DNA from: Rhodanobacter sp. C05
GTDB lineage: Bacteria > Pseudomonadota > Gammaproteobacteria > Xanthomonadales > Rhodanobacteraceae
Reading direction: 5' to 3'
Length of the DNA stretch: 64,000 nt
Assembly (NCBI RefSeq): GCF_002001165.1
Contig: NZ_MUNQ01000007.1
Span: 248,001-312,000 of the forward strand
Position 1 is the first letter of the stretch. Every line of letters begins with the position of its first letter. Shown piece after piece: positions 48,808 through 58,834 of this stretch. The position numbers and the translations under genes are program-made. The notes under the pieces are model-generated. The model was not told where the DNA came from, searched no databases, and worked only from the letters and a program-made list of their open reading frames with translations.

Positions 48808-49860
48808 CTATTGCGGCAGCAGTTTCTGCAAATCCCGCTGGTGGTCGTGATCGATTTCTGCGAGTCGCGCCAGCCGCGCCTGCGGACTGACCCACTGGCC
48901 ATGCTCGGCCTCTTGTCGCAGCAAGACGTACTGCATGTCCACGAACGGCTGCAGCACACGATTGTTCTGCGGAGCAAAGCCACCCAGATCCGGGATGCGG
49001 GCAAGCTGGCCACGTTCGCGCGCACCCGCCTCGCCGGGTGCGTTGCCATAAGTGAGGATGAACGCGGTCAGCTGCCGGCGCAGTTCAGTCGCCAGTCCTT
49101 CGCGTACGACCAGAACGCCGGATGGAATCAGCGGCGACTGCCAGATCACCCTGAGCTGGGCAGCTTCGCCAGGAAAGTTGTGGCGGAACAGGTCCATGTC
49201 CGGATTGTTGCTGCTCGCCACATCAGCCTCACGGTTGACTACGGCCAGCAGATTGCTCTGGTGATCGCCTACCTGAACATTGGCGAAAAAGGTGTCGGAA
49301 TTGAGGCCGTGCGGCGCGAATACGTCTGCCTCCGGCGCGGTGTAACCGGTGACCGAAAGCTGCTCGCTGCGCGCATAGCGCCAACGACCGGGATTGGCCA
49401 GCAAGCCGGCGAGACTGCGGATCGGACTGTCGCCGCGTACCACCAGCATGGCGACATTGCCCCTGGCGCCGTCGCTGCGCACAAACTGGGCGAACACCTG
49501 CATGTGCTGATGTATCACCGCCTCCACGGCTAGCTTGCCGGAAAGGAAGGCGACATCTACCCGTTGCGCGCCGATGGCGCCGGAAAGGCCGGCATAGCTG
49601 CTTACCGACACGGTAGTCACTCGACGGCCAAGCCGCTTCTGCAGCTCTTCCAGCAGTGGCCGCCATTGCTCCAGCGATTCGGCGGCACTACCAATCGGCA
49701 GGATGCCGAAACGGATCGGTGCTGCCTGGGCAGCAAGCTGCCCCGATGCTTGTGCACTTGCACCGAACAGCAGCAGGCCGAGGCTCAACCCGACCGAAGC
49801 GATGCGCGCCAGGCAATGGCGGGCGCACAACCGATGCAGCCAAGATGCGTTCACTGCCAT
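48808..49860 (-). CDS. PhnD-type phosphate/phosphonate ABC transporter binding protein
   Basis: This 350-residue periplasmic protein has a signal peptide (ASVGLSLGLLLFGASAQA) and the PhnD-like fold: IRFGILPIGSAAESLEQWRP at the start, VDVAFLSGKLAVEAVI and VNREADVASSNNPDMDLF. PhnD proteins bind phosphonate or phosphite, but this distant type also occurs as sensors. No ATPase or permease gene is adjacent, so it is an orphan. AGGGGATCC forms the ribosome-binding site. A 16-bp tandem duplication lies just upstream. Confidence 0.88.
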   Translation of the reverse strand: MAVNASWLHRLCARHCLARIASVGLSLGLLLFGASAQASGQLAAQAAPIRFGILPIGSAAESLEQWRPLLEELQKRLGRRVTTVSVSSYAGLSGAIGAQRVDVAFLSGKLAVEAVIHQHMQVFAQFVRSDGARGNVAMLVVRGDSPIRSLAGLLANPGRWRYARSEQLSVTGYTAPEADVFAPHGLNSDTFFANVQVGDHQSNLLAVVNREADVASSNNPDMDLFRHNFPGEAAQLRVIWQSPLIPSGVLVVREGLATELRRQLTAFILTYGNAPGEAGARERGQLARIPDLGGFAPQNNRVLQPFVDMQYVLLRQEAEHGQWVSPQARLARLAEIDHDHQRDLQKLLPQ

Positions 49861-50769: not shown

Positions 50770-52107
50770 TTACATCAGCTTGAGTTTGGGATGAGCGAGC
50801 CGCGCATGCAGGTCATGCTCACTGGCGGCCTCGACCACCACGTCGACGAACTGGCCCGACTTCAGCGCGTGGCCGTCGGCGATCAGCACGGTGCCGTCGA
50901 TCTCCGGCGCATCCGCCGCCGAACGCGCCACCGCGCCGTCGGCACCGGCTTCGTCGACCAGCACGGTGATCGTGCGGCCGATCTTGCGCTGCAACTTGGC
51001 AGCAGAGATTTCCGCCTGCACCGCCATGAACTGTTCCAGGCGATCTTCCTTCAGTTCCTCGGAAACCGGATCGGGCAGCTCGTTCGCCTTGGCGCCATCG
51101 ACCGGCGAATACGCAAACGCACCGACGCGATCCAGCTCGGCCTCGCGCAGGAAGTCGAGCAGTTCCTCGAACTCGGCATCGGTCTCGCCAGGGAAGCCGA
51201 CGATGAAGGTGCTGCGGATGGTCAGGTCAGGCACGACCTTGCGCCAGTTCTGGATGCGTTCCAGCGTCTTGTCGATATTGCCCGGGCGCTTCATCAGTTT
51301 CAGGATACGCGGGCTGGCGTGCTGGAACGGGATATCGAGGTACGGCAGCAGCTTGCCGGCCGCCATCAGCGGCATCACCTCGTCCACGTGCGGGTACGGA
51401 TAGACGTAATGCAGCCGCGACCACACGCCCAGCTCGGACAGGCCTTCGCACAACTCGGTCATGCGCGTGCGGTAGCTCTTGTCGCGCCATTGGCGCTCGG
51501 CGTACTTGATGTCCACGCCGTAGGCGCTGGTGTCCTGCGAGATCACCAGCAGCTCCTTGACGCCACCCTTGACCAGCCGCTCAGCCTCCAGCAGCACCTC
51601 GTCGACCGGACGCGAGACCAGGTTGCCGCGCATCGACGGGATGATGCAGAAGCTGCAGCGGTGATTGCAGCCTTCTGAAATCTTCAGATAGGCGTAGTGC
51701 TTCGGGGTCAGCTTGACGCCGGTGTCCGGCACGATATCGAGAAAGCGGTTGCGCTGCGGCGGCAACGCGGTATGCACCGCGTTCATCACGCTGACGTAGT
51801 CCTGCGGGCCGCTGATCGACAGCACGTCCGGATACGCCTCGCGGATCAGCGCCTCACGCTTGCCGAGGCAGCCGGTGACGATCACCTTGCCGTTCTCATG
51901 CAGGGCGGTGCCAATCGAATCCAGCGACTCCTGCACCGCCGCGTCGATGAAGCCGCAGGTGTTCACCACCACCGCATCGGCCTCGCCGTAGCTGGGCACG
52001 ATCTGGTAACCCTCGACCTTCAGCTGGGTGAGGATGCGCTCGGAATCGACCAGCGCCTTGGGGCAGCCGAGGCTGACGAAACCGATCTTGTGTGCAGCCT
52101 GGGACAT
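50770..52107 (-). CDS. rimO: Ribosomal protein S12 methylthiotransferase RimO
   Basis: This 445-residue radical-SAM enzyme adds a methylthio group to an aspartate of ribosomal protein S12. The N-terminal UPF0004 domain has cluster cysteines in [21 protein letters not shown] and VTGCLGKRE. The radical-SAM motif is CNHRCSFC (near residue 148), and a C-terminal TRAM domain starts near 378. The N-terminal [11 protein letters not shown] type distinguishes RimO from MiaB. It is divergent from the 5-oxoproline operon. Confidence 0.98.
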
Positions 52108-52216: not shown

Positions 52217-52885
52217 ATGGGCCAGCAGATCAATCTACCCACCACCCGCACCCAGTGCATCGGCGCGTACCTGGCCCAGCCGCAGGGCAAGCCGAAGGGC
52301 GGCATCGTGGTGATCCAGGAGATCTTCGGCGTCAATGCGCACATGCGCAGCGTGGCCGATCGCTTCGCCGAGCACGGCTATACCGCGATCGCGCCGGCGT
52401 TCTTCGACCATCTGGAAACCGGCGTGGAGCTGGGCTATGACGAAGCCGGCTATGCCAGGGGCAAGCAGCTGGTCACCGAACTGGGGCTGGATCGTGCAGT
52501 GGAGGACGTCGCCAGCGCGGCCGAGGCGATCGCTTCGGCGGGAAAGATCGGCACCGTCGGCTATTGCTGGGGTGGCACCATAGCGCTGCTGTCCGCATTG
52601 CGCCTGGGCCTGCCGTCGGTGAGCTATTACGGCGCGCGCAACCTGCCGTTCCTGCACGAAACACCGAAGGCGCCGGTGATGTTCCACTTCGGTGAGAAGG
52701 ACCAGCACATCACACCCGAGATGGTGGCCAAGCATCGCGAAGCGTTGCCGCAGATGGAGACCTTCACCTATCCGGCCGATCACGGCTTCAACCGCGATGT
52801 CGGCGCCAGTTACGACGAGGCCAGCGCCAGGCTCGCGCTGCAGCGCACCCTGGCATTCTTCGACAAATACCTGGCTGGCGCATGA
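52217..52885 (+). CDS. Dienelactone hydrolase family protein
   Basis: This 222-residue alpha/beta hydrolase has the dienelactone hydrolase triad: Cys in VGYCWGGTIA (near residue 117), Asp near FHFGEKDQHI (near 166), and His in YPADHGFNRD (near 196). Physiological substrates of family members outside chloroaromatic pathways are mostly unknown. Met at 52217 was selected. It is the first gene of an eight-gene operon and overlaps the HIT gene by 4 bases. Confidence 0.93.
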   Translation: MGQQINLPTTRTQCIGAYLAQPQGKPKGGIVVIQEIFGVNAHMRSVADRFAEHGYTAIAPAFFDHLETGVELGYDEAGYARGKQLVTELGLDRAVEDVASAAEAIASAGKIGTVGYCWGGTIALLSALRLGLPSVSYYGARNLPFLHETPKAPVMFHFGEKDQHITPEMVAKHREALPQMETFTYPADHGFNRDVGASYDEASARLALQRTLAFFDKYLAGA

Positions 52886-53307
52886 GCAAGCCCGATTTCG
52901 TACTCGACGCCCGGCTTGAGGCGGATACGCGACTGGTCGCATCACTCGCACTATGCGATGTGCGACTGATGAACGACACGCGCTACGCCTGGCTGGTACT
53001 GGTGCCTCGTCAGGCCGGACTGGTGGAGATCACCGACCTGGCCGCCAACGAGCAGACGCTGCTGTGGCAGGAAGTGAATCGTGCCTCGGCGGCCCTGCGT
53101 GAGATCGCTCCGTGCGACAAGCTCAACCTCGGCGCACTCGGCAACATCGTGCGCCAGCTGCATGTGCATATCGTCGCGCGCCGCGAGGGCGACGCCGCAT
53201 GGCCCGGTCCGGTATGGGGTCACGGCCACGCTCAGCCGTATGCCGATACCAGCCTGGCCGCACGGCTGGATGCGCTGCGGCAAGCGCTCGCCAAGATCAC
53301 CGGATAA
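52882..53307 (+). CDS. HIT-family nucleotide hydrolase/transferase
   Basis: This 141-residue protein belongs to the histidine triad superfamily. The motif reads QLHVHIVARR: the central catalytic His and third His are present, but the first position is Gln. YAWLVLVPRQAGLVEITDL matches the family beta core. It probably hydrolyses a nucleotide phosphoramidate or dinucleotide. It is coupled to the dienelactone hydrolase gene by ATGA and followed by pxpB after 7 bases. Confidence 0.88.
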   Translation: MSKPDFVLDARLEADTRLVASLALCDVRLMNDTRYAWLVLVPRQAGLVEITDLAANEQTLLWQEVNRASAALREIAPCDKLNLGALGNIVRQLHVHIVARREGDAAWPGPVWGHGHAQPYADTSLAARLDALRQALAKITG

Positions 53308-53314
53308 CGCCGCG

Positions 53315-54013
53315 ATGCTGCCGGCCATCCAGTTCGAAGCGCTGGCCGAGGATGCGCTATTGCTGCGTTTTGGCGAGCGCATCGATATCGAACTCAATGC
53401 GCGCGTGCAGGCCGCAACCGCCTGCCTGCGCCAGCGTCTGCCGCAACTGGAATGCGTGCCGGCTTATGCCAGCGTGCTGCTGCGCTTCGATCCGCAGCAC
53501 TGGCCCGGCGGCGACCCGCATCAACAAGTACAGGCAGCCGCCTGCGCGATCCTGGACGCACCGGATCCGTTCGTCATCGCATCACGTGAGTTGGTGATTC
53601 CGGTCTGCTATGGCGGCGAGCACGGCCCGGATCTGGCCGAGGTTTCCGCCCACTGTCGGCTCGATGCGGATGCGGTGATCGCCCACCACACTGCCGCCGA
53701 CTACCGCGTGGCGATGCTCGGCTTCGCACCAGGCTTTCCCTATCTGCTTGGACTCGATCCGCGGCTGGCCGTGCCACGCCGCCCCGATCCGCGCCAACGC
53801 GTGCCGGCGGGCAGCGTGGCGATCGGCGGCAGCCAGACCGGCATCTATCCGGAGACGCTGCCCGGCGGCTGGCAACTGATCGGACGCACGCCCATGCGCC
53901 TGTTCGACATCACGGCGAACACGCCATCGCTGTTCACGCCAGGCGATCGCGTGCGCTTTGAGGCGATCGACGAAGACCAGTTCCGCGACCTGGCAGCGAC
54001 CAACCCGGCATGA
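53315..54013 (+). CDS. pxpB: 5-oxoprolinase subunit PxpB (KipI-like)
   Basis: This 232-residue protein is the PxpB subunit of the ATP-dependent, prokaryotic 5-oxoprolinase PxpABC. Typical segments are ELVIPVCYGGEHGPDLAEVS, MLGFAPGFPYLLGLD and GSVAIGGSQTGIYP. In Bacillus, the homologue KipI was first described as a sporulation kinase inhibitor. It overlaps pxpC by 4 bases. The start at 53315 was selected by family length. Confidence 0.96.
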   Translation: MLPAIQFEALAEDALLLRFGERIDIELNARVQAATACLRQRLPQLECVPAYASVLLRFDPQHWPGGDPHQQVQAAACAILDAPDPFVIASRELVIPVCYGGEHGPDLAEVSAHCRLDADAVIAHHTAADYRVAMLGFAPGFPYLLGLDPRLAVPRRPDPRQRVPAGSVAIGGSQTGIYPETLPGGWQLIGRTPMRLFDITANTPSLFTPGDRVRFEAIDEDQFRDLAATNPA

Positions 54014-54993
54014 ACGTCACCGTCATCAAACCGGGCTTGCTGAGCAGTCTGCAGGATGCCGGACGCTCAGGCCATGCTGCGCTCGGCGTGGGGCGTGCCG
54101 GCGCGATGGATCCGCCCGCGTGGCAGCTGGCCAACGCGCTGGTCGGCAATGTCGGCAGCGAGGCAGCGATCGAATGCACCCTGACTGGCCCCAGCTTGCG
54201 CTTCGAACAAGCGGCAGTGATCGCGCTGACTGGCGCGCCGATCACGGCCCGCGTCGGTGAGCGCAGCGTGCCGATGTGGACCACCTTCCACTTGGCCGCC
54301 GGCAGCGTGCTGCACCTGGGCGGCATGGTCAGCGGCTTTCGCAGCTATCTCGCCGTGCGCGGCGGCTTCGACGTGCCGACCCTGCTTGGCAGCCGCAGCA
54401 GCGACTTGCACGCGCGCATCGGCTATGACCGCGGCCGCGCGCTGCGCGCCGGCGATGTGCTACCTGTTGGCACCGCTGCAGCATTGCCCGGTTTTACCGC
54501 TGGCTACGACGTGCAGCAACTTGACTGGAGTCTCGATCCCCAGCCCTGGTTCGACTTCGCTCAGCGTCCGTTGGCGCTGCTGTGCGGCAGCCACTGGTCA
54601 CAACTGGATGCAGCGTCGCAACAGCTCCTGTTCAGCGGAAAATTTTCCCTGAGCAAGGACAGCAACCGCACCGCCAGTCGTCTGGATGGCCATATGCTGC
54701 AATTGCGGGCACCGCTGGAACTGATTTCCGAGGCAGCACTGCCCGGCACCGTGCAATTGCCGCCGTCCGGCCAGCCGATCGCCCTGCTGGCCGAGGCGCC
54801 AGTGACCGGCGGTTACCCGCGGATCGGCCAGATCGCCATGGTGGATCTGCCGCGATTGGCGCAACGGCGCCCGGGCGATACCGTATGCTTCCGCGAGACC
54901 ACGCTGGACGAGGCGTTGACGCGGCTGGCCGCACATCGGCAGCGGCTGGCACGCCTGCTCGGCACGATCGCACAACGACTGGAACGCACTTGA
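54010..54993 (+). CDS. pxpC: 5-oxoprolinase subunit PxpC (KipA-like)
   Basis: This 327-residue protein belongs to the biotin-dependent carboxyltransferase-like PxpC family. The start VIKPGLLSSLQDAGRSGHAA, then GVGRAGAMDPPAWQLANALV, and the later PVTGGYPRIGQIAMVDLPRL match. PxpC and PxpB phosphorylate or activate 5-oxoproline for ring opening by PxpA. The gene starts inside pxpB and is followed by pxpA after 14 bases. Confidence 0.97.
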   Translation: MNVTVIKPGLLSSLQDAGRSGHAALGVGRAGAMDPPAWQLANALVGNVGSEAAIECTLTGPSLRFEQAAVIALTGAPITARVGERSVPMWTTFHLAAGSVLHLGGMVSGFRSYLAVRGGFDVPTLLGSRSSDLHARIGYDRGRALRAGDVLPVGTAAALPGFTAGYDVQQLDWSLDPQPWFDFAQRPLALLCGSHWSQLDAASQQLLFSGKFSLSKDSNRTASRLDGHMLQLRAPLELISEAALPGTVQLPPSGQPIALLAEAPVTGGYPRIGQIAMVDLPRLAQRRPGDTVCFRETTLDEALTRLAAHRQRLARLLGTIAQRLERT

Positions 54994-55007
54994 TTGAGTC
55001 AACCCGC

Positions 55008-55772
55008 ATGAACCGCATCGACCTCAACGGCGACCTCGGCGAATCGTTTGGCGCATGGCGCATGGGCGACGACGACGCACTGCTGGCGCTGCTCAGTTCG
55101 GCCAACATCGCCTGCGGCTTTCATGCGGGTGACCCGCAGATCATGCGCTACACGGTGGCGCAGGCGGTGGCGCACGGCGTGGCAATCGGCGCGCACGTCT
55201 CGCTACCCGACCTGCAGGGTTTCGGGCGCCGCGAAATGAGCGTCACGGCCGCCGAAGCGCATGCGCTGACGCTGTACCAGATCGGTGCCCTGCACGCGTT
55301 CACCTGTGCCGCCGGCACGCGGCTGACCCACGTCAAGCCGCATGGCGCGCTGTACAACATGGCTGCACGCGATGCGGTGCTGGCCAACGCGATCGCCCGC
55401 GCCGTGCGCGACTTCGATCCGCAGCTGCGGCTGTTCGGCTTGGCCGGCTCGGCCCTGATCGAGGCCGGCCAGACCCTGGGCCTGGCGGTTGTTGCCGAGG
55501 CCTTCGTCGACCGCCGCTATCGCGCTGATGGCTCGTTGCAGCCACGCCGCGAAACCGGCTCCGTGATCGAGGATATGGATCAGGCGCTGGCGCAGGCACT
55601 CGGCATTGCCCGCGACGGCGTGGCGCATACGCTGGATGGCCGGCACGTGCAACTACGCGCCGACACGCTGTGCCTGCATGGTGATGGCGCCCATGCCGTG
55701 CAGTTGGCGCGCAAGCTGCGCAGTGAGCTCGAAGCAGCAGGCCTGCAGATCGCCGCACCAGGAGCTGCATGA
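55008..55772 (+). CDS. pxpA: 5-oxoprolinase subunit PxpA (LamB/YcsF)
   Basis: This 254-residue subunit opens the lactam ring of 5-oxoproline to give glutamate with PxpBC and ATP. LamB/YcsF family marks are DLNGDLGESFGAWRMGDD, ANIACGFHAGDP, VKPHGALYN and LCLHGDGAHAV. The frame extends upstream through pxpC, but Met at 55008 begins the conserved N-terminus. DUF969 follows after 31 bases. Confidence 0.97.
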   Translation: MNRIDLNGDLGESFGAWRMGDDDALLALLSSANIACGFHAGDPQIMRYTVAQAVAHGVAIGAHVSLPDLQGFGRREMSVTAAEAHALTLYQIGALHAFTCAAGTRLTHVKPHGALYNMAARDAVLANAIARAVRDFDPQLRLFGLAGSALIEAGQTLGLAVVAEAFVDRRYRADGSLQPRRETGSVIEDMDQALAQALGIARDGVAHTLDGRHVQLRADTLCLHGDGAHAVQLARKLRSELEAAGLQIAAPGAA

Positions 55773-55803
55773 TGCCCTTCCTTCGCTGCGACGAAGATCG
55801 CTC

Positions 55804-56499
55804 ATGAATTACTGGCCACTGCTCGGCGTCGCGGTGATCGTGGTCGGCTTTCTGCTGCGCTTCAATCCGGTCCTGGTGGTGGTCACCGCAGCGATCAGCA
55901 GCGCCATGCTGGCCGGTTTCACGGTACCGGCGCTGCTCGCCCTGCTCGGCAAGAGCTTCGTATCCAGTCGCATGCTGCTGATCTTTGTGCTGACCCTGCC
56001 GGTGATTGGGCTGCTGGAACGTGCGGGATTGCGCGAACACGCGCAACGCTGGATAGGTCGCCTGCACGGACTGACCCTGGCACGACTGCTGATCGGCTAT
56101 CTGCTGTTGCGTCAGTTGCTGGCCATGCTTGGCCTCACTGGCGTAGCGGGCCCCGCACAAACGGTGCGCCCGCTGCTTGCGCCGATGGGTGAAGCCGCTG
56201 CGGAAAAGATCCTGCCGACACTGAGCGATGCCGATCGCGACGAGTTGCGCGCGATGGCCGCCGCCACCGACAACATCGGCCGTTTCTTCGGTGAGGACGT
56301 ATTCATCGCACTCGGCGCGGTGCTGCTGGTCCAGGGCTTCTATGCGCAGCACGGTATCGAGCTGACTCCCTTGTCGATCGCGTTGTGGGCGCTACCCACG
56401 GCGATCGCAGCCTTCATCATCCAGTCCGTGCGGGTATGGCTGTACCAGCGCCGGCTGCAGCGTCGCGCGGCATCCGCACGCACCGAATCGGCGAGCTGA
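55804..56499 (+). CDS. DUF969 membrane protein, half of a two-gene transporter candidate
   Basis: This 231-residue DUF969-family protein has about six membrane segments (MNYWPLLGVAVIVVGFLLRF at the start; WALPTAIAAFIIQSVRVWLY near the end) and a conserved central loop with GPAQTVRPLLAPMGEAAAEK and ATDNIGRFFGEDVF. DUF969 and DUF979 genes are usually adjacent and resemble halves of an ion-coupled carrier. Its position between pxpA and pcp makes uptake of 5-oxoproline or pyroglutamyl peptides the likely role. Function is inferred from context. Confidence 0.88.
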   Translation: MNYWPLLGVAVIVVGFLLRFNPVLVVVTAAISSAMLAGFTVPALLALLGKSFVSSRMLLIFVLTLPVIGLLERAGLREHAQRWIGRLHGLTLARLLIGYLLLRQLLAMLGLTGVAGPAQTVRPLLAPMGEAAAEKILPTLSDADRDELRAMAAATDNIGRFFGEDVFIALGAVLLVQGFYAQHGIELTPLSIALWALPTAIAAFIIQSVRVWLYQRRLQRRAASARTESAS

Positions 56500-56501
56500 G
56501 C

Positions 56502-57470
56502 ATGCTGCGCATCGAATACGCCTACTGGCTGATCGCTGCCTTCCTGCTCTACACCGGCCTGCGCAATCTGCGCGAGCAGCACGGCTGGCACGCTGCGTTC
56601 TGGCTGGTGCTCGGCACGCTGTTCGGCAGCGGCGATTACGTGTTGGCGCAACAGGCCACCGGCCACGCGCTACCGGCGCAACTGGCTGGTATCGGGGTGA
56701 TCGTGCTGGCGCTGCTGGCACCACGCCTGCGCCGCCACGCACATGTTGAAGGCAACAACGCCGAGCAACGCCTGCAATCGGCGATCCGACTCGGTCACAA
56801 GTTGTTCGTGCCCGCCTTGCTGATTCCACTGGTAACCCTGCTGGTGGCGTTGTTCGGCGCGCATCTTTTCATTGCAGGACATGCCGTATTCGCCACGCCG
56901 CAGATGACCCTGACCGGACTGGCGCTGGCCTGCCTGGTCTCACTGTTCGCAGCGGCGCGGGTGGCGCATGCGCCGATGCGCGACGGCCTGGCCGAAGGCC
57001 GACGCCTGCTCGATGCGATCGGCTGGGCGGCGCTGCTGCCACTGCTGCTGGCGGCGCTGGGCGAGGTGTTCACTCAAAGCGGCGTGGGCGCGGCGATCGC
57101 CGCACTGGCCGGCACCTTCCTGCCGACCGGCAGCGCCTTTGCCTGCCTGCTCGCCTTCGCACTCGGCATGGTGTTGTTCACCGTGATCATGGGCAACGCG
57201 TTCGCGGCGTTTCCGGTGATGATGGCCGGCATCGGCCTGCCGCTGCTGATCCATCAGCACGGTGCGAATCCGGCGATCCTCGGTTCGATGGGCATGCTGT
57301 GCGGCTACTGCGGCACCCTGCTGACACCGATGGCAGCCGACTTCAACCTGGTGCCGGCTGCGCTGCTGGAACTGCGCAGCCCGTACGGAGTGATCCGCGC
57401 GCAGGTATGGAGCGCGTTGTGGATTCTCGCCACTACCTTCATGTTGATGTGGCTGCTGGTATTCCGCTGA
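56502..57470 (+). CDS. DUF979 membrane protein, partner of DUF969
   Basis: This 322-residue DUF979-family protein has about nine or ten hydrophobic segments, with family stretches IEYAYWLIAAFLLYTGLRNL, GVGAAIAALAGTFLPTGSAF, VIMGNAFAAFPVMMAGIGLP and GYCGTLLTPMAADFN. It begins 2 bases after the DUF969 stop, so the pair are made together. A repeated GNAFAAFPVM/GYCGTLLTP arrangement recalls the hairpin loops of ion-transporter (IT) superfamily carriers. Likely one subunit of a pyroglutamate transporter. Confidence 0.88.
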   Translation: MLRIEYAYWLIAAFLLYTGLRNLREQHGWHAAFWLVLGTLFGSGDYVLAQQATGHALPAQLAGIGVIVLALLAPRLRRHAHVEGNNAEQRLQSAIRLGHKLFVPALLIPLVTLLVALFGAHLFIAGHAVFATPQMTLTGLALACLVSLFAAARVAHAPMRDGLAEGRRLLDAIGWAALLPLLLAALGEVFTQSGVGAAIAALAGTFLPTGSAFACLLAFALGMVLFTVIMGNAFAAFPVMMAGIGLPLLIHQHGANPAILGSMGMLCGYCGTLLTPMAADFNLVPAALLELRSPYGVIRAQVWSALWILATTFMLMWLLVFR

Positions 57471-57486
57471 ATTCGATGAGGTCTGC

Positions 57487-58140
57487 ATGAGCACCGTCCC
57501 ACGTATCCTGCTGACCGGTTTCGATCCGTTCGGCGGCGAAAGCATCAATCCGTCGTGGGAGGCCGTGCGGACACTGCACGGCAAACGCATCGGCGGACAT
57601 CGTGTTGTCGCGTTGCAGTTGCCGACGGAGTTTGCCAGTTCGCTGCGCATGCTCAAGGCGGCGGTGCGCGAGCTGACCCCGGTGATCCTGCTCGGCGTAG
57701 GCCAGGCTGGTGGACGGTCGCAGCTGTCGATCGAGCGGGTGGCGATCAACCTGCAGGATGCGCGCATTCCCGACAACGCCGGGGCGCAGCCGGTGGACGA
57801 ACCTGTGATCGCCGGCGCACCGGCCGCCTACTTCAGCACGCTGCCGATCAAGGCGATGCTGGCTGCAATGCATGCGCAAGGCCTGCCGGCCGAGATATCG
57901 AACAGCGCCGGTACCTATGTCTGCAACCAGATCGCCTACGCCATGCTGTATCTGGCAGCGAAGCGGCGTGGCGTACGCGCCGGCTTCATCCACATTCCGT
58001 ACTCGCCAACACAGGCGGCACCGCGACACGGTGCCGCCAGCATGGCGCTGACTGATGTGGTGCGCGGCCTGGAGATCGCCTTGCGCACAGCGATCACCAC
58101 GCCGGTTGATCGCAAGCTTGGCGCCGGCGCACTCGACTGA
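57487..58140 (+). CDS. pcp: Pyroglutamyl-peptidase I
   Basis: This 217-residue cytosolic cysteine peptidase (family C15) removes N-terminal pyroglutamate from peptides. The start LLTGFDPFGGESINPSWEAV is diagnostic. The catalytic Glu is in RSQLSIERVAINL, Cys in GTYVCNQIAYAM and His in GFIHIPYSPTQ. It ends the operon, supplying 5-oxoproline to PxpABC. The last residues before the stop show no unusual extension. Confidence 0.97.
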   Translation: MSTVPRILLTGFDPFGGESINPSWEAVRTLHGKRIGGHRVVALQLPTEFASSLRMLKAAVRELTPVILLGVGQAGGRSQLSIERVAINLQDARIPDNAGAQPVDEPVIAGAPAAYFSTLPIKAMLAAMHAQGLPAEISNSAGTYVCNQIAYAMLYLAAKRRGVRAGFIHIPYSPTQAAPRHGAASMALTDVVRGLEIALRTAITTPVDRKLGAGALD

Positions 58141-58170: not shown

Positions 58171-58198
58171 GAAAAAGCCCGCGGATTGCTCCGCGGGC
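58171..58198 (-). terminator. Rho-independent terminator, minus strand (possibly bidirectional)
   Basis: A perfect 9-bp stem (GCCCGCGGA at 58177-58185, TCCGCGGGC at 58190-58198, loop TTGC) is followed on the minus strand by TTTTTC. It lies between convergent pcp and the lipoprotein gene and could serve both. Confidence 0.9.
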
Positions 58199-58234
58199 CG
58201 TCGATAAAAGTCCGTGCGTCCGGTATTGCGCGGA

Positions 58235-58711
58235 TCAGTACTGGGCGCCTGGCGTGTGATCCTGCGGCGGCGGCGCGTCGGGTGTCGGAGCACGCTCGTG
58301 GTGATCCTGCAAGGCGCGCGCCTTGGTGTCCTGCGGGTTGATCTCCATAAGCGTGCCCTTGTTGTCGTAGTACGTACGGAACCCGTAGTCGAGCTGCATG
58401 CGCGCCATGTACTGCAGGTGGATCTTGCGGATCTTCGAATCGTCGCTGTTCTGCAGCAGCACGGTCTTGGGCAACTTGCCCTGATCCTTCAGGTAGGCAA
58501 AGTGGCTGCCGAGATCGACCGCCGACAGCACGGCACCGTCAACCACGAACTGGCCTTCCTTGTAGGCCTGGATGGTGGCGTCGAATTGTCCCTGCATCGA
58601 AGCCGTGGTGACTCCCTTGGTGCCGCCAAAGTGACAACCGGCAAGCAGCAATGTGCTGCCCAGCATGATCGCGACGGCAGCGCGCGTCAGCAATGTGGAA
58701 AAACGGATCAT
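58235..58711 (-). CDS. Lipoprotein of unknown function
   Basis: This 158-residue protein has a lipoprotein signal (LGSTLLLAGC, lipidated Cys near residue 26). A helical body follows (MQGQFDATIQAYKEGQFVVD, SHFAYLKDQGKLP, KIRKIHLQYMARMQLDYGFR) and ends in a Pro/His-rich tail (HHERAPTPDAPPPQDH). No family is recognised. GGAG precedes the ATG at 58711. It has its own terminator. Confidence 0.78.
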   Translation of the reverse strand: MIRFSTLLTRAAVAIMLGSTLLLAGCHFGGTKGVTTASMQGQFDATIQAYKEGQFVVDGAVLSAVDLGSHFAYLKDQGKLPKTVLLQNSDDSKIRKIHLQYMARMQLDYGFRTYYDNKGTLMEINPQDTKARALQDHHERAPTPDAPPPQDHTPGAQY

Positions 58712-58834
58712 GCAGGTCTCCTGAAAATCAAACAATTGAATCAATAATTGGGAAGTGTAACGCCGGACGGTGACATGGGCAGCTGTGGCAGATGCCCGCC
58801 GTTCAGCCACCTGCCTTCGACAGGGCCGTCCGGT

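Follow-up and report, generated by a model that had tools for sequence, protein, structure and literature searches.

A probable pyroglutamate operon with a putative two-part DUF969/DUF979 transporter in Rhodanobacter sp. C05

The window considered here is a stretch of 64,000 nucleotides of the Rhodanobacter sp. C05 genome (contig NZ_MUNQ01000007.1, positions 248,001 to 312,000), which holds a block of eight genes at positions 52217-58140. Six of them, in the order pxpB-pxpC-pxpA-DUF969-DUF979-pcp, probably make up an operon for the use of pyroglutamate (5-oxoproline), lying behind an unrelated pair of genes that encode a dienelactone-hydrolase-family protein (DLH) and a HIT-domain protein. In this reading, which we hold with good confidence, DUF969 and DUF979 would form a split transporter. 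A sequence-only reading of the same DNA had proposed such an operon and had taken DUF969 and DUF979 for the two parts of an importer of 5-oxoproline or pyroglutamyl peptides. The operon and the two-part transporter are supported by the protein families, the gene order, a weak fold resemblance of DUF979 and the literature. Gene content, order, families, conservation and, weakly, the DUF979 fold come from the present analysis; the chemistry of PxpABC and the phenotype of a Campylobacter jejuni mutant are taken from published papers. We infer that the two subunits pair in Rhodanobacter sp. C05, and likewise what they carry, in which direction and with which coupling ion.

The gene block and its enzymes

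The eight open reading frames (ORFs) all lie on the + strand and are open throughout, and each scores over its Pfam cut-off. The tight packing described earlier from the sequence is borne out by the DNA, with junctions ranging from -4 to +31 bp: DLH/HIT (-4), HIT/pxpB (+7), pxpB/pxpC (-4), pxpC/pxpA (+14), pxpA/DUF969 (+31), DUF969/DUF979 (+2) and DUF979/pcp (+16). The start of DUF969 was taken as the ATG at 55804, which gives a protein of 231 aa, instead of a longer open frame, and that of pxpB as 53315. A survey of genome contigs retrieved a DUF969 match in 78 of 80 related loci, followed on the same strand by DUF979 and Pcp in 76 of these 78, a recurrence of gene order which excludes chance as the origin of the block. 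Among the matches listed, from which very near records may have been left out, the closest DUF979 is that of Rhodanobacter sp. B04 (95% identity).

The three subunits of 5-oxoprolinase are encoded together. PxpB (53315-54013, +; 232 aa) matches CT_C_D with 228.9 bits and TIGR00370 with 187.9 (cut-off 145.55), its solved relatives including YbgJ (5dud_B), with PH0987 (2phc_B) as the best. PxpA (55008-55772, +; 254 aa) matches LamB_YcsF with 329.9 bits and NF003814 with 346.3 (cut-off 226), and its best solved match is YbgL (1xw8_A, 7e-72). PxpC (54010-54993, +; 327 aa) matches CT_A_B with 281.6 bits. It misses the narrow NCBI equivalog model NF045499 (240.8 bits against a cut-off of 500), passes the broader TIGR00724 (262.8 bits, cut-off 230.2) and has YbgK (5dud_A, 1.8e-52) as its best solved match; it is thus named by family and context.

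The last gene of the block, pcp (57487-58140, +), encodes a pyroglutamyl peptidase I of family C15 (217 aa; Peptidase_C15 250.0 bits; TIGR00504 257.6, cut-off 201.75). Its solved relatives include several pyrrolidone-carboxylate peptidases. Residues 6-208 align to 3lac_A (1.8e-65), and the Glu, Cys and His that we take to be the C15 catalytic triad are kept. No signal peptide was seen by eye in Pcp, and the enzyme is placed in the cytosol in the proposed model.

According to this model, pyroglutamate would enter the cell either free or bound in peptides, or in both forms. DUF969 and DUF979 would form one secondary transporter of the inner membrane, of the split ion-transporter-superfamily type, its cargo being 5-oxoproline or compounds that carry it. 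Pcp would cut N-terminal pyroglutamate from peptides in the cytosol, PxpB-PxpC would phosphorylate 5-oxoproline with ATP, and PxpA would open the ring to yield glutamate.

The DUF969/DUF979 pair as a putative transporter

DUF969 (55804-56499, +) and DUF979 (56502-57470, +; 322 aa) are membrane proteins, each a putative transporter half, with Pfam scores of 270.8 bits (gathering threshold 32) and 316.9 bits (gathering threshold 26), respectively. DUF979 follows DUF969 at all 52 surveyed places, namely 29 in the order sample, 10 in the phylum sample outside the order and 13 in the Bacillus-phylum sample, which is centred on the Bacillus genome G395. Two further DUF969 places (G039 C1 and G085 C22) have no locus in this count; the first of them, G039 C1, is covered by L154, where Pcp is present. 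The two proteins thus appear, from gene order, to be one unit. A fused DUF969-DUF979 gene was looked for and rejected: none was found among the 78 loci with both, and the two share a frame only in L088 and L093, with stops between them.

For the structural model of DUF979, 26 of the first 28 fold-match rows are carriers that we assign to the ion-transporter superfamily, a weak resemblance for which the Foldseek E-value is not below 0.041. In such a fold DUF979 might represent one inverted repeat, and DUF969 would supply the other. By sequence, no solved relative of DUF979 was found in the PDB, and DUF969 gave a single chance-level match. Compared with the ion-transporter-superfamily carriers VcINDY, SiaQM, YdaH and NaS1, the window's DUF979 has a shorter chain and no PDB sequence match, and the system is divided between two genes. 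Other transporter types were discarded. The Pfam scan detected no Nramp domain in DUF969 or DUF979, which rejects an NRAMP-type PxpT identity, and it detected no binding protein or ATPase of a tripartite ATP-independent periplasmic (TRAP) or ATP-binding cassette (ABC) importer among the eight genes, which rejects those two identities.

The idea that DUF969/DUF979 carries 5-oxoproline is already in print and has been partly tested elsewhere. Both PMC11467057 and PMC12795558 credit the suggestion to Niehaus et al. (2017, J Biol Chem 292:16360), whose PxpABC loci share pxpB-pxpC-pxpA with the window; pcp within the operon and DLH-HIT ahead of it are features of the window. In the metabolic model of PMC6904757, transport of 5-oxoproline was assigned to DUF969/979 homologues. 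PMC11467057 places DUF979 in clan CL0182 and predicts a Clostridioides difficile DUF979-DUF969 complex with an interface predicted template modelling score (ipTM) around 0.9. In an experiment called preliminary, PMC12795558 (2026) reports that a C. jejuni cj0552-4 mutant can no longer draw its nitrogen from 5-oxoproline. That locus has the same DUF969-DUF979 pair as the window, but with DUF2891 where the window has pcp, and the mutation covers the whole cj0552-4 operon. Transporters of 5-oxoproline are only now being settled. PMC13274462 (2026) describes PxpT, of another type, in Corynebacterium glutamicum, cites YcsG for Bacillus subtilis, where a ycsG deletion is stated to abolish growth-supporting use of 5-oxoproline, and mentions a TRAP-type system. 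The C. glutamicum pxpTABC and B. subtilis systems combine pxpABC with a 5-oxoproline transporter gene, as the window may do, but their transporter is a single NRAMP/APC-type protein, whereas the window has DUF969 and DUF979, neither of which has an Nramp match.

A second kind of neighbourhood bears on the cargo. Directly upstream of DUF969-DUF979-DUF2891 in L134 (2262-5981) and L135 (6716-10390) is a protein of 1,224-1,239 aa in which hydantoinase A and B are fused. These loci belong to two genomes (G315 and G343) of one family, in the same phylum and another class, with no pxpA match. The fused arrangement is presumably the architecture of the eukaryote-type 5-oxoprolinase, which other hydantoinases share, and the L134 protein, which is over no NCBIfam cut-off, is named by architecture only. 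The same DUF969-DUF979 pair would thus stand beside a candidate 5-oxoprolinase of another family, unrelated to PxpABC, possibly as a non-homologous replacement. A table in PMC10040529 lists hydantoinase B/oxoprolinase, DUF969, DUF979, DUF2891 and DUF885 among clusters co-occurring with halotolerance, the first four with near-consecutive cluster numbers (113, 115-117). The mutant phenotype and the position of this hydantoinase-type protein, which stands in for PxpABC in the gene order, are the reasons for keeping import of 5-oxoproline as the most likely function.

Genomic partners and the question of cargo

Within the order sample (200 genomes), DUF969 occurs in 30 genomes, pxpA in 67 and both in 29 (Fisher p 2.6e-15, with no correction for phylogeny), and a same-strand pxpA lies within 300 bp of 26 of 32 DUF969 places. 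The genome-wide co-occurrence of DUF969/979 with pxp and pcp, put forward as a check by the sequence-only reading, thus held in the home order, where 29 of 30 DUF969 genomes have pxpA; outside it, pcp or DUF2891 tracked the pair better than pxp. In the phylum sample (200 genomes), DUF969 is found in 12 genomes and pxpA in 56, with 8 genomes having the two. Ten genomes have a strong pcp match (E < 1e-60), and 8 of these ten have DUF969, compared with 8 of the 56 pxpA genomes; when all 22 pcp matches are counted, the fraction is 8/22. In each of the four DUF969 genomes without pcp in this sample (G310, G315, G343 and G394), the gene behind DUF979 is DUF2891. Beyond the home order, DUF969 is tied less closely to PxpABC than to pcp or DUF2891.

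The gene that follows DUF979 at the 52 places is Pcp in 40, DUF2891 in 7 and neither in 5, so that Pcp or DUF2891 is coupled to the pair at 47. In the longer stretch of G365 (L133), DUF2891 and then Pcp follow. On trees of 52 rows (51 chosen loci and the window), the DUF2891-linked copies are clustered, with 3 changes for DUF979 and 2 for DUF969, values as low as these occurring in none of 500 shuffles; these copies do not form one clade. In two genomes, G039 and G085, the pair occurs twice, with one copy adjacent to pxpA and another (L121 and L122, respectively) adjacent to DUF2891; the DUF2891 Pfam match is shown for L121, and L122 is assigned by similarity.

Several results weigh against a transporter devoted to 5-oxoproline. 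On the structural side, Foldseek returned no match at E 0.001 for the DUF969 or the DUF979 model, and the DUF969 model, all-helical with a mean predicted local distance difference test score (pLDDT) of 77.7, has no informative fold match; hhalign, on shallow profiles, detected no homology between DUF969 and DUF979. On the genomic side, the association with pxpA is not significant in the Bacillus-phylum sample (p 0.22 by Fisher test, phylogeny ignored), where DUF969 occurs in 13 of 279 genomes, pxpA in 84 and both in 6. The centre genome of that sample, G395, had been picked for having DUF969 and pxpA, and without it 5 of 12 DUF969 genomes have pxpA. No pxpA match was found in 7 of the 13 DUF969 genomes there, where other 5-oxoprolinases were not searched for, nor in 4 of the 12 of the phylum sample. 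Genome completeness is not stated for the Bacillus-phylum set, so some pxpA gaps may reflect missing sequence. Six of these seven pxpA-less Bacillus-phylum genomes have Pcp after DUF979. Unless they encode another 5-oxoprolinase or are incomplete, the genomes without a pxpA match would gain little from importing free 5-oxoproline. Finally, an Nramp protein, of the family of PxpT/YcsG, is found in the same cluster at L158 and L162, which suggests a division of labour. The cargo is the weak point of the 5-oxoproline reading: the genes that most regularly follow the pair are Pcp and DUF2891, and the pair also occurs in genomes where pxpA has no match.

In one alternative, which we regard as unlikely though still a serious rival, the pair would bring in pyroglutamyl di- or tripeptides instead of free 5-oxoproline; Pcp would cut them inside, and PxpABC, where present, would complete the work. 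It would account for Pcp being the commonest next gene, also where pxpA has no match (G210, G451, G476, G592, G594, G622 and G645), for the closer association with strong pcp matches than with pxpA in the phylum sample, and for the Nramp protein at L158 and L162. Carriers of the ion-transporter superfamily are however mostly known for small anions, which does not favour peptides. The C. jejuni mutant, moreover, loses the use of free 5-oxoproline (PMC12795558), though its locus has DUF2891 and no pcp.

Somewhat broader, and given a small chance, is the proposal that DUF969/DUF979 is mainly a partner of Pcp and DUF2891, and not of PxpABC: it would be a split half-repeat carrier for pyroglutamyl peptides, or would swap such peptides for 5-oxoproline, and DUF2891 would be an unrecognized enzyme standing in for Pcp. 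If this is true, import of 5-oxoproline is one specialized case. The presence of DUF969/979 with Pcp or DUF2891 even without a pxpA match sharpens the question of cargo and direction, and makes DUF2891 the next candidate of interest.

The opposite direction has also been weighed. DUF969/DUF979 could export 5-oxoproline arising from Pcp or from glutamine cyclization, or exchange it for an incoming compound, which seems quite improbable. Exchangers do occur in the ion-transporter superfamily, and genomes that have DUF969-DUF979-Pcp but lack a pxpA match would have to get rid of 5-oxoproline, although other 5-oxoprolinases were not searched for in those genomes. In PMC13274462, 5-oxoproline is described as arising spontaneously from glutamine and glutamate. 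According to the same paper, B. subtilis pxp mutants pile it up in cells and medium, in line with export. Where PxpABC shares the operon, as in the window, export would nevertheless oppose the pathway, and the C. jejuni phenotype speaks for import (PMC12795558).

Least probable among these is a function as membrane partner or sensor for Pcp/DUF2891 in place of transport. The near-constant coupling to one or the other enzyme would suit it, as would the weakness of the fold evidence for a transporter; the carrier-like matches of the DUF979 model argue for transport instead, and so does the published mutant, which is affected in its use of a substrate supplied from outside (PMC12795558).

Other genes were noticed near the pxp and DUF969-DUF979 genes at several loci. 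A DUF885 protein with a lipoprotein-like start lies between pxpC and pxpA at L074:6693-8483, L076:6668-8452 and L090:6666-8450, and upstream of pxpA at L099:6229-8031, with a Pfam match shown for L074 and L099, and L076 and L090 assigned by similarity; this protein may be a peptidase that is exported and supplies the pathway. CRP/FNR-type regulators are encoded near DUF969-DUF979-pcp at L156:10518-11234, L158:6824-7507, L160:6715-7383, L161:9498-10175 and L163:5063-5623. All five scanned regulator ORFs, from 5 of the 13 Bacillus-phylum loci, match CRP-type helix-turn-helix and cyclic-nucleotide-binding domains, and N-termini resembling these regulators are present at L159, L162 and L164. In Dyella choica (L068:5022-7957), a LysR-like ORF, recognized by eye, and a GMC oxidoreductase, recognized by Pfam, lie between pxpC and pxpA.

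The DLH-HIT pair and flanking features

The two leading genes encode the DLH protein (52217-52885, +; Pfam DLH 134.9 bits) and the HIT protein (52882-53307, +; Pfam HIT 50.5 bits, best solved match 3nrd_A, 1.3e-39), and rimO (50770-52107, -; TIGR01125 557.7 bits) diverges from the block. The sequence-only reading had counted both hydrolases as additional, unexplained steps, a claim which comparison with genomes of the same family does not support. This comparison covers the 34 family genomes displayed among the DUF969 and pxpA matches, out of a sample that holds more, with only the best DLH, HIT and rimO row of each genome. It used 32 of 33 DUF969 rows (the second piece of the G021 gene being omitted) and 31 of 70 pxpA rows, those of the DUF969 genomes and of the compared family genomes. 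Of the 34 genomes, 15 have and 19 lack a pxpA match, and in 32 of them DLH and HIT are no more than 100 bp apart. The pair is kept in 18 of the 19 without, and in 12 of them it is at most 300 bp from rimO. In G039, G046 and G085, DLH-HIT is 103-104 bp from rimO, with pxpA on another contig or 233 kb off, and the blocks of G046 (L153) and G039 (L154) are without DLH-HIT. The pair belongs with rimO, since it persists without pxpA and adjoins rimO in family genomes; on the strength of this persistence DLH and HIT were rejected as pathway enzymes. From their gene neighbourhoods, they are probably ordinary neighbours, and HIT is possibly co-transcribed with the pathway genes.

A single pathway made up of the whole block, in which DLH and HIT supply real steps, is accordingly given very little credence. 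Such a pathway would be in keeping with the 4-bp overlap of DLH and HIT, the 7-bp gap between HIT and pxpB, and the finding that DLH and HIT precede the block in 46 of 80 related loci. The family genomes described above speak against it, and so do the 34 loci without DLH: 17 of these have at least 4 kb of sequence upstream of pxpB, so that the missing DLH is not a contig-end effect there. In G059 and G066, which belong to one genus of another family, DLH-HIT is found directly downstream of pcp instead of upstream. This placement, which is probably a rearrangement of one neighbourhood, speaks against dismissing DLH-HIT completely. With the survey, two enzymes drop out of the supposed pathway, and the six-gene pyroglutamate operon is the favoured reading.

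Searches for signals around the block gave little. Between 51900 and 58700, the promoter scan found none against 0.8 expected, and three terminator-like sites were found against 3.0 expected, a count which is not significant. Neither the tRNA scan nor the Rfam scan at gathering thresholds found anything in the window. A G+C-rich stem of 10 pairs at 58176-58199, between pcp and the convergent ORF 58235-58810, has a T-rich tail listed on the - strand only and is a possible transcript end. Further upstream in the window, the - strand gene at 48808-49860 looks by eye like a periplasmic binding protein of the phosphate/phosphonate type.

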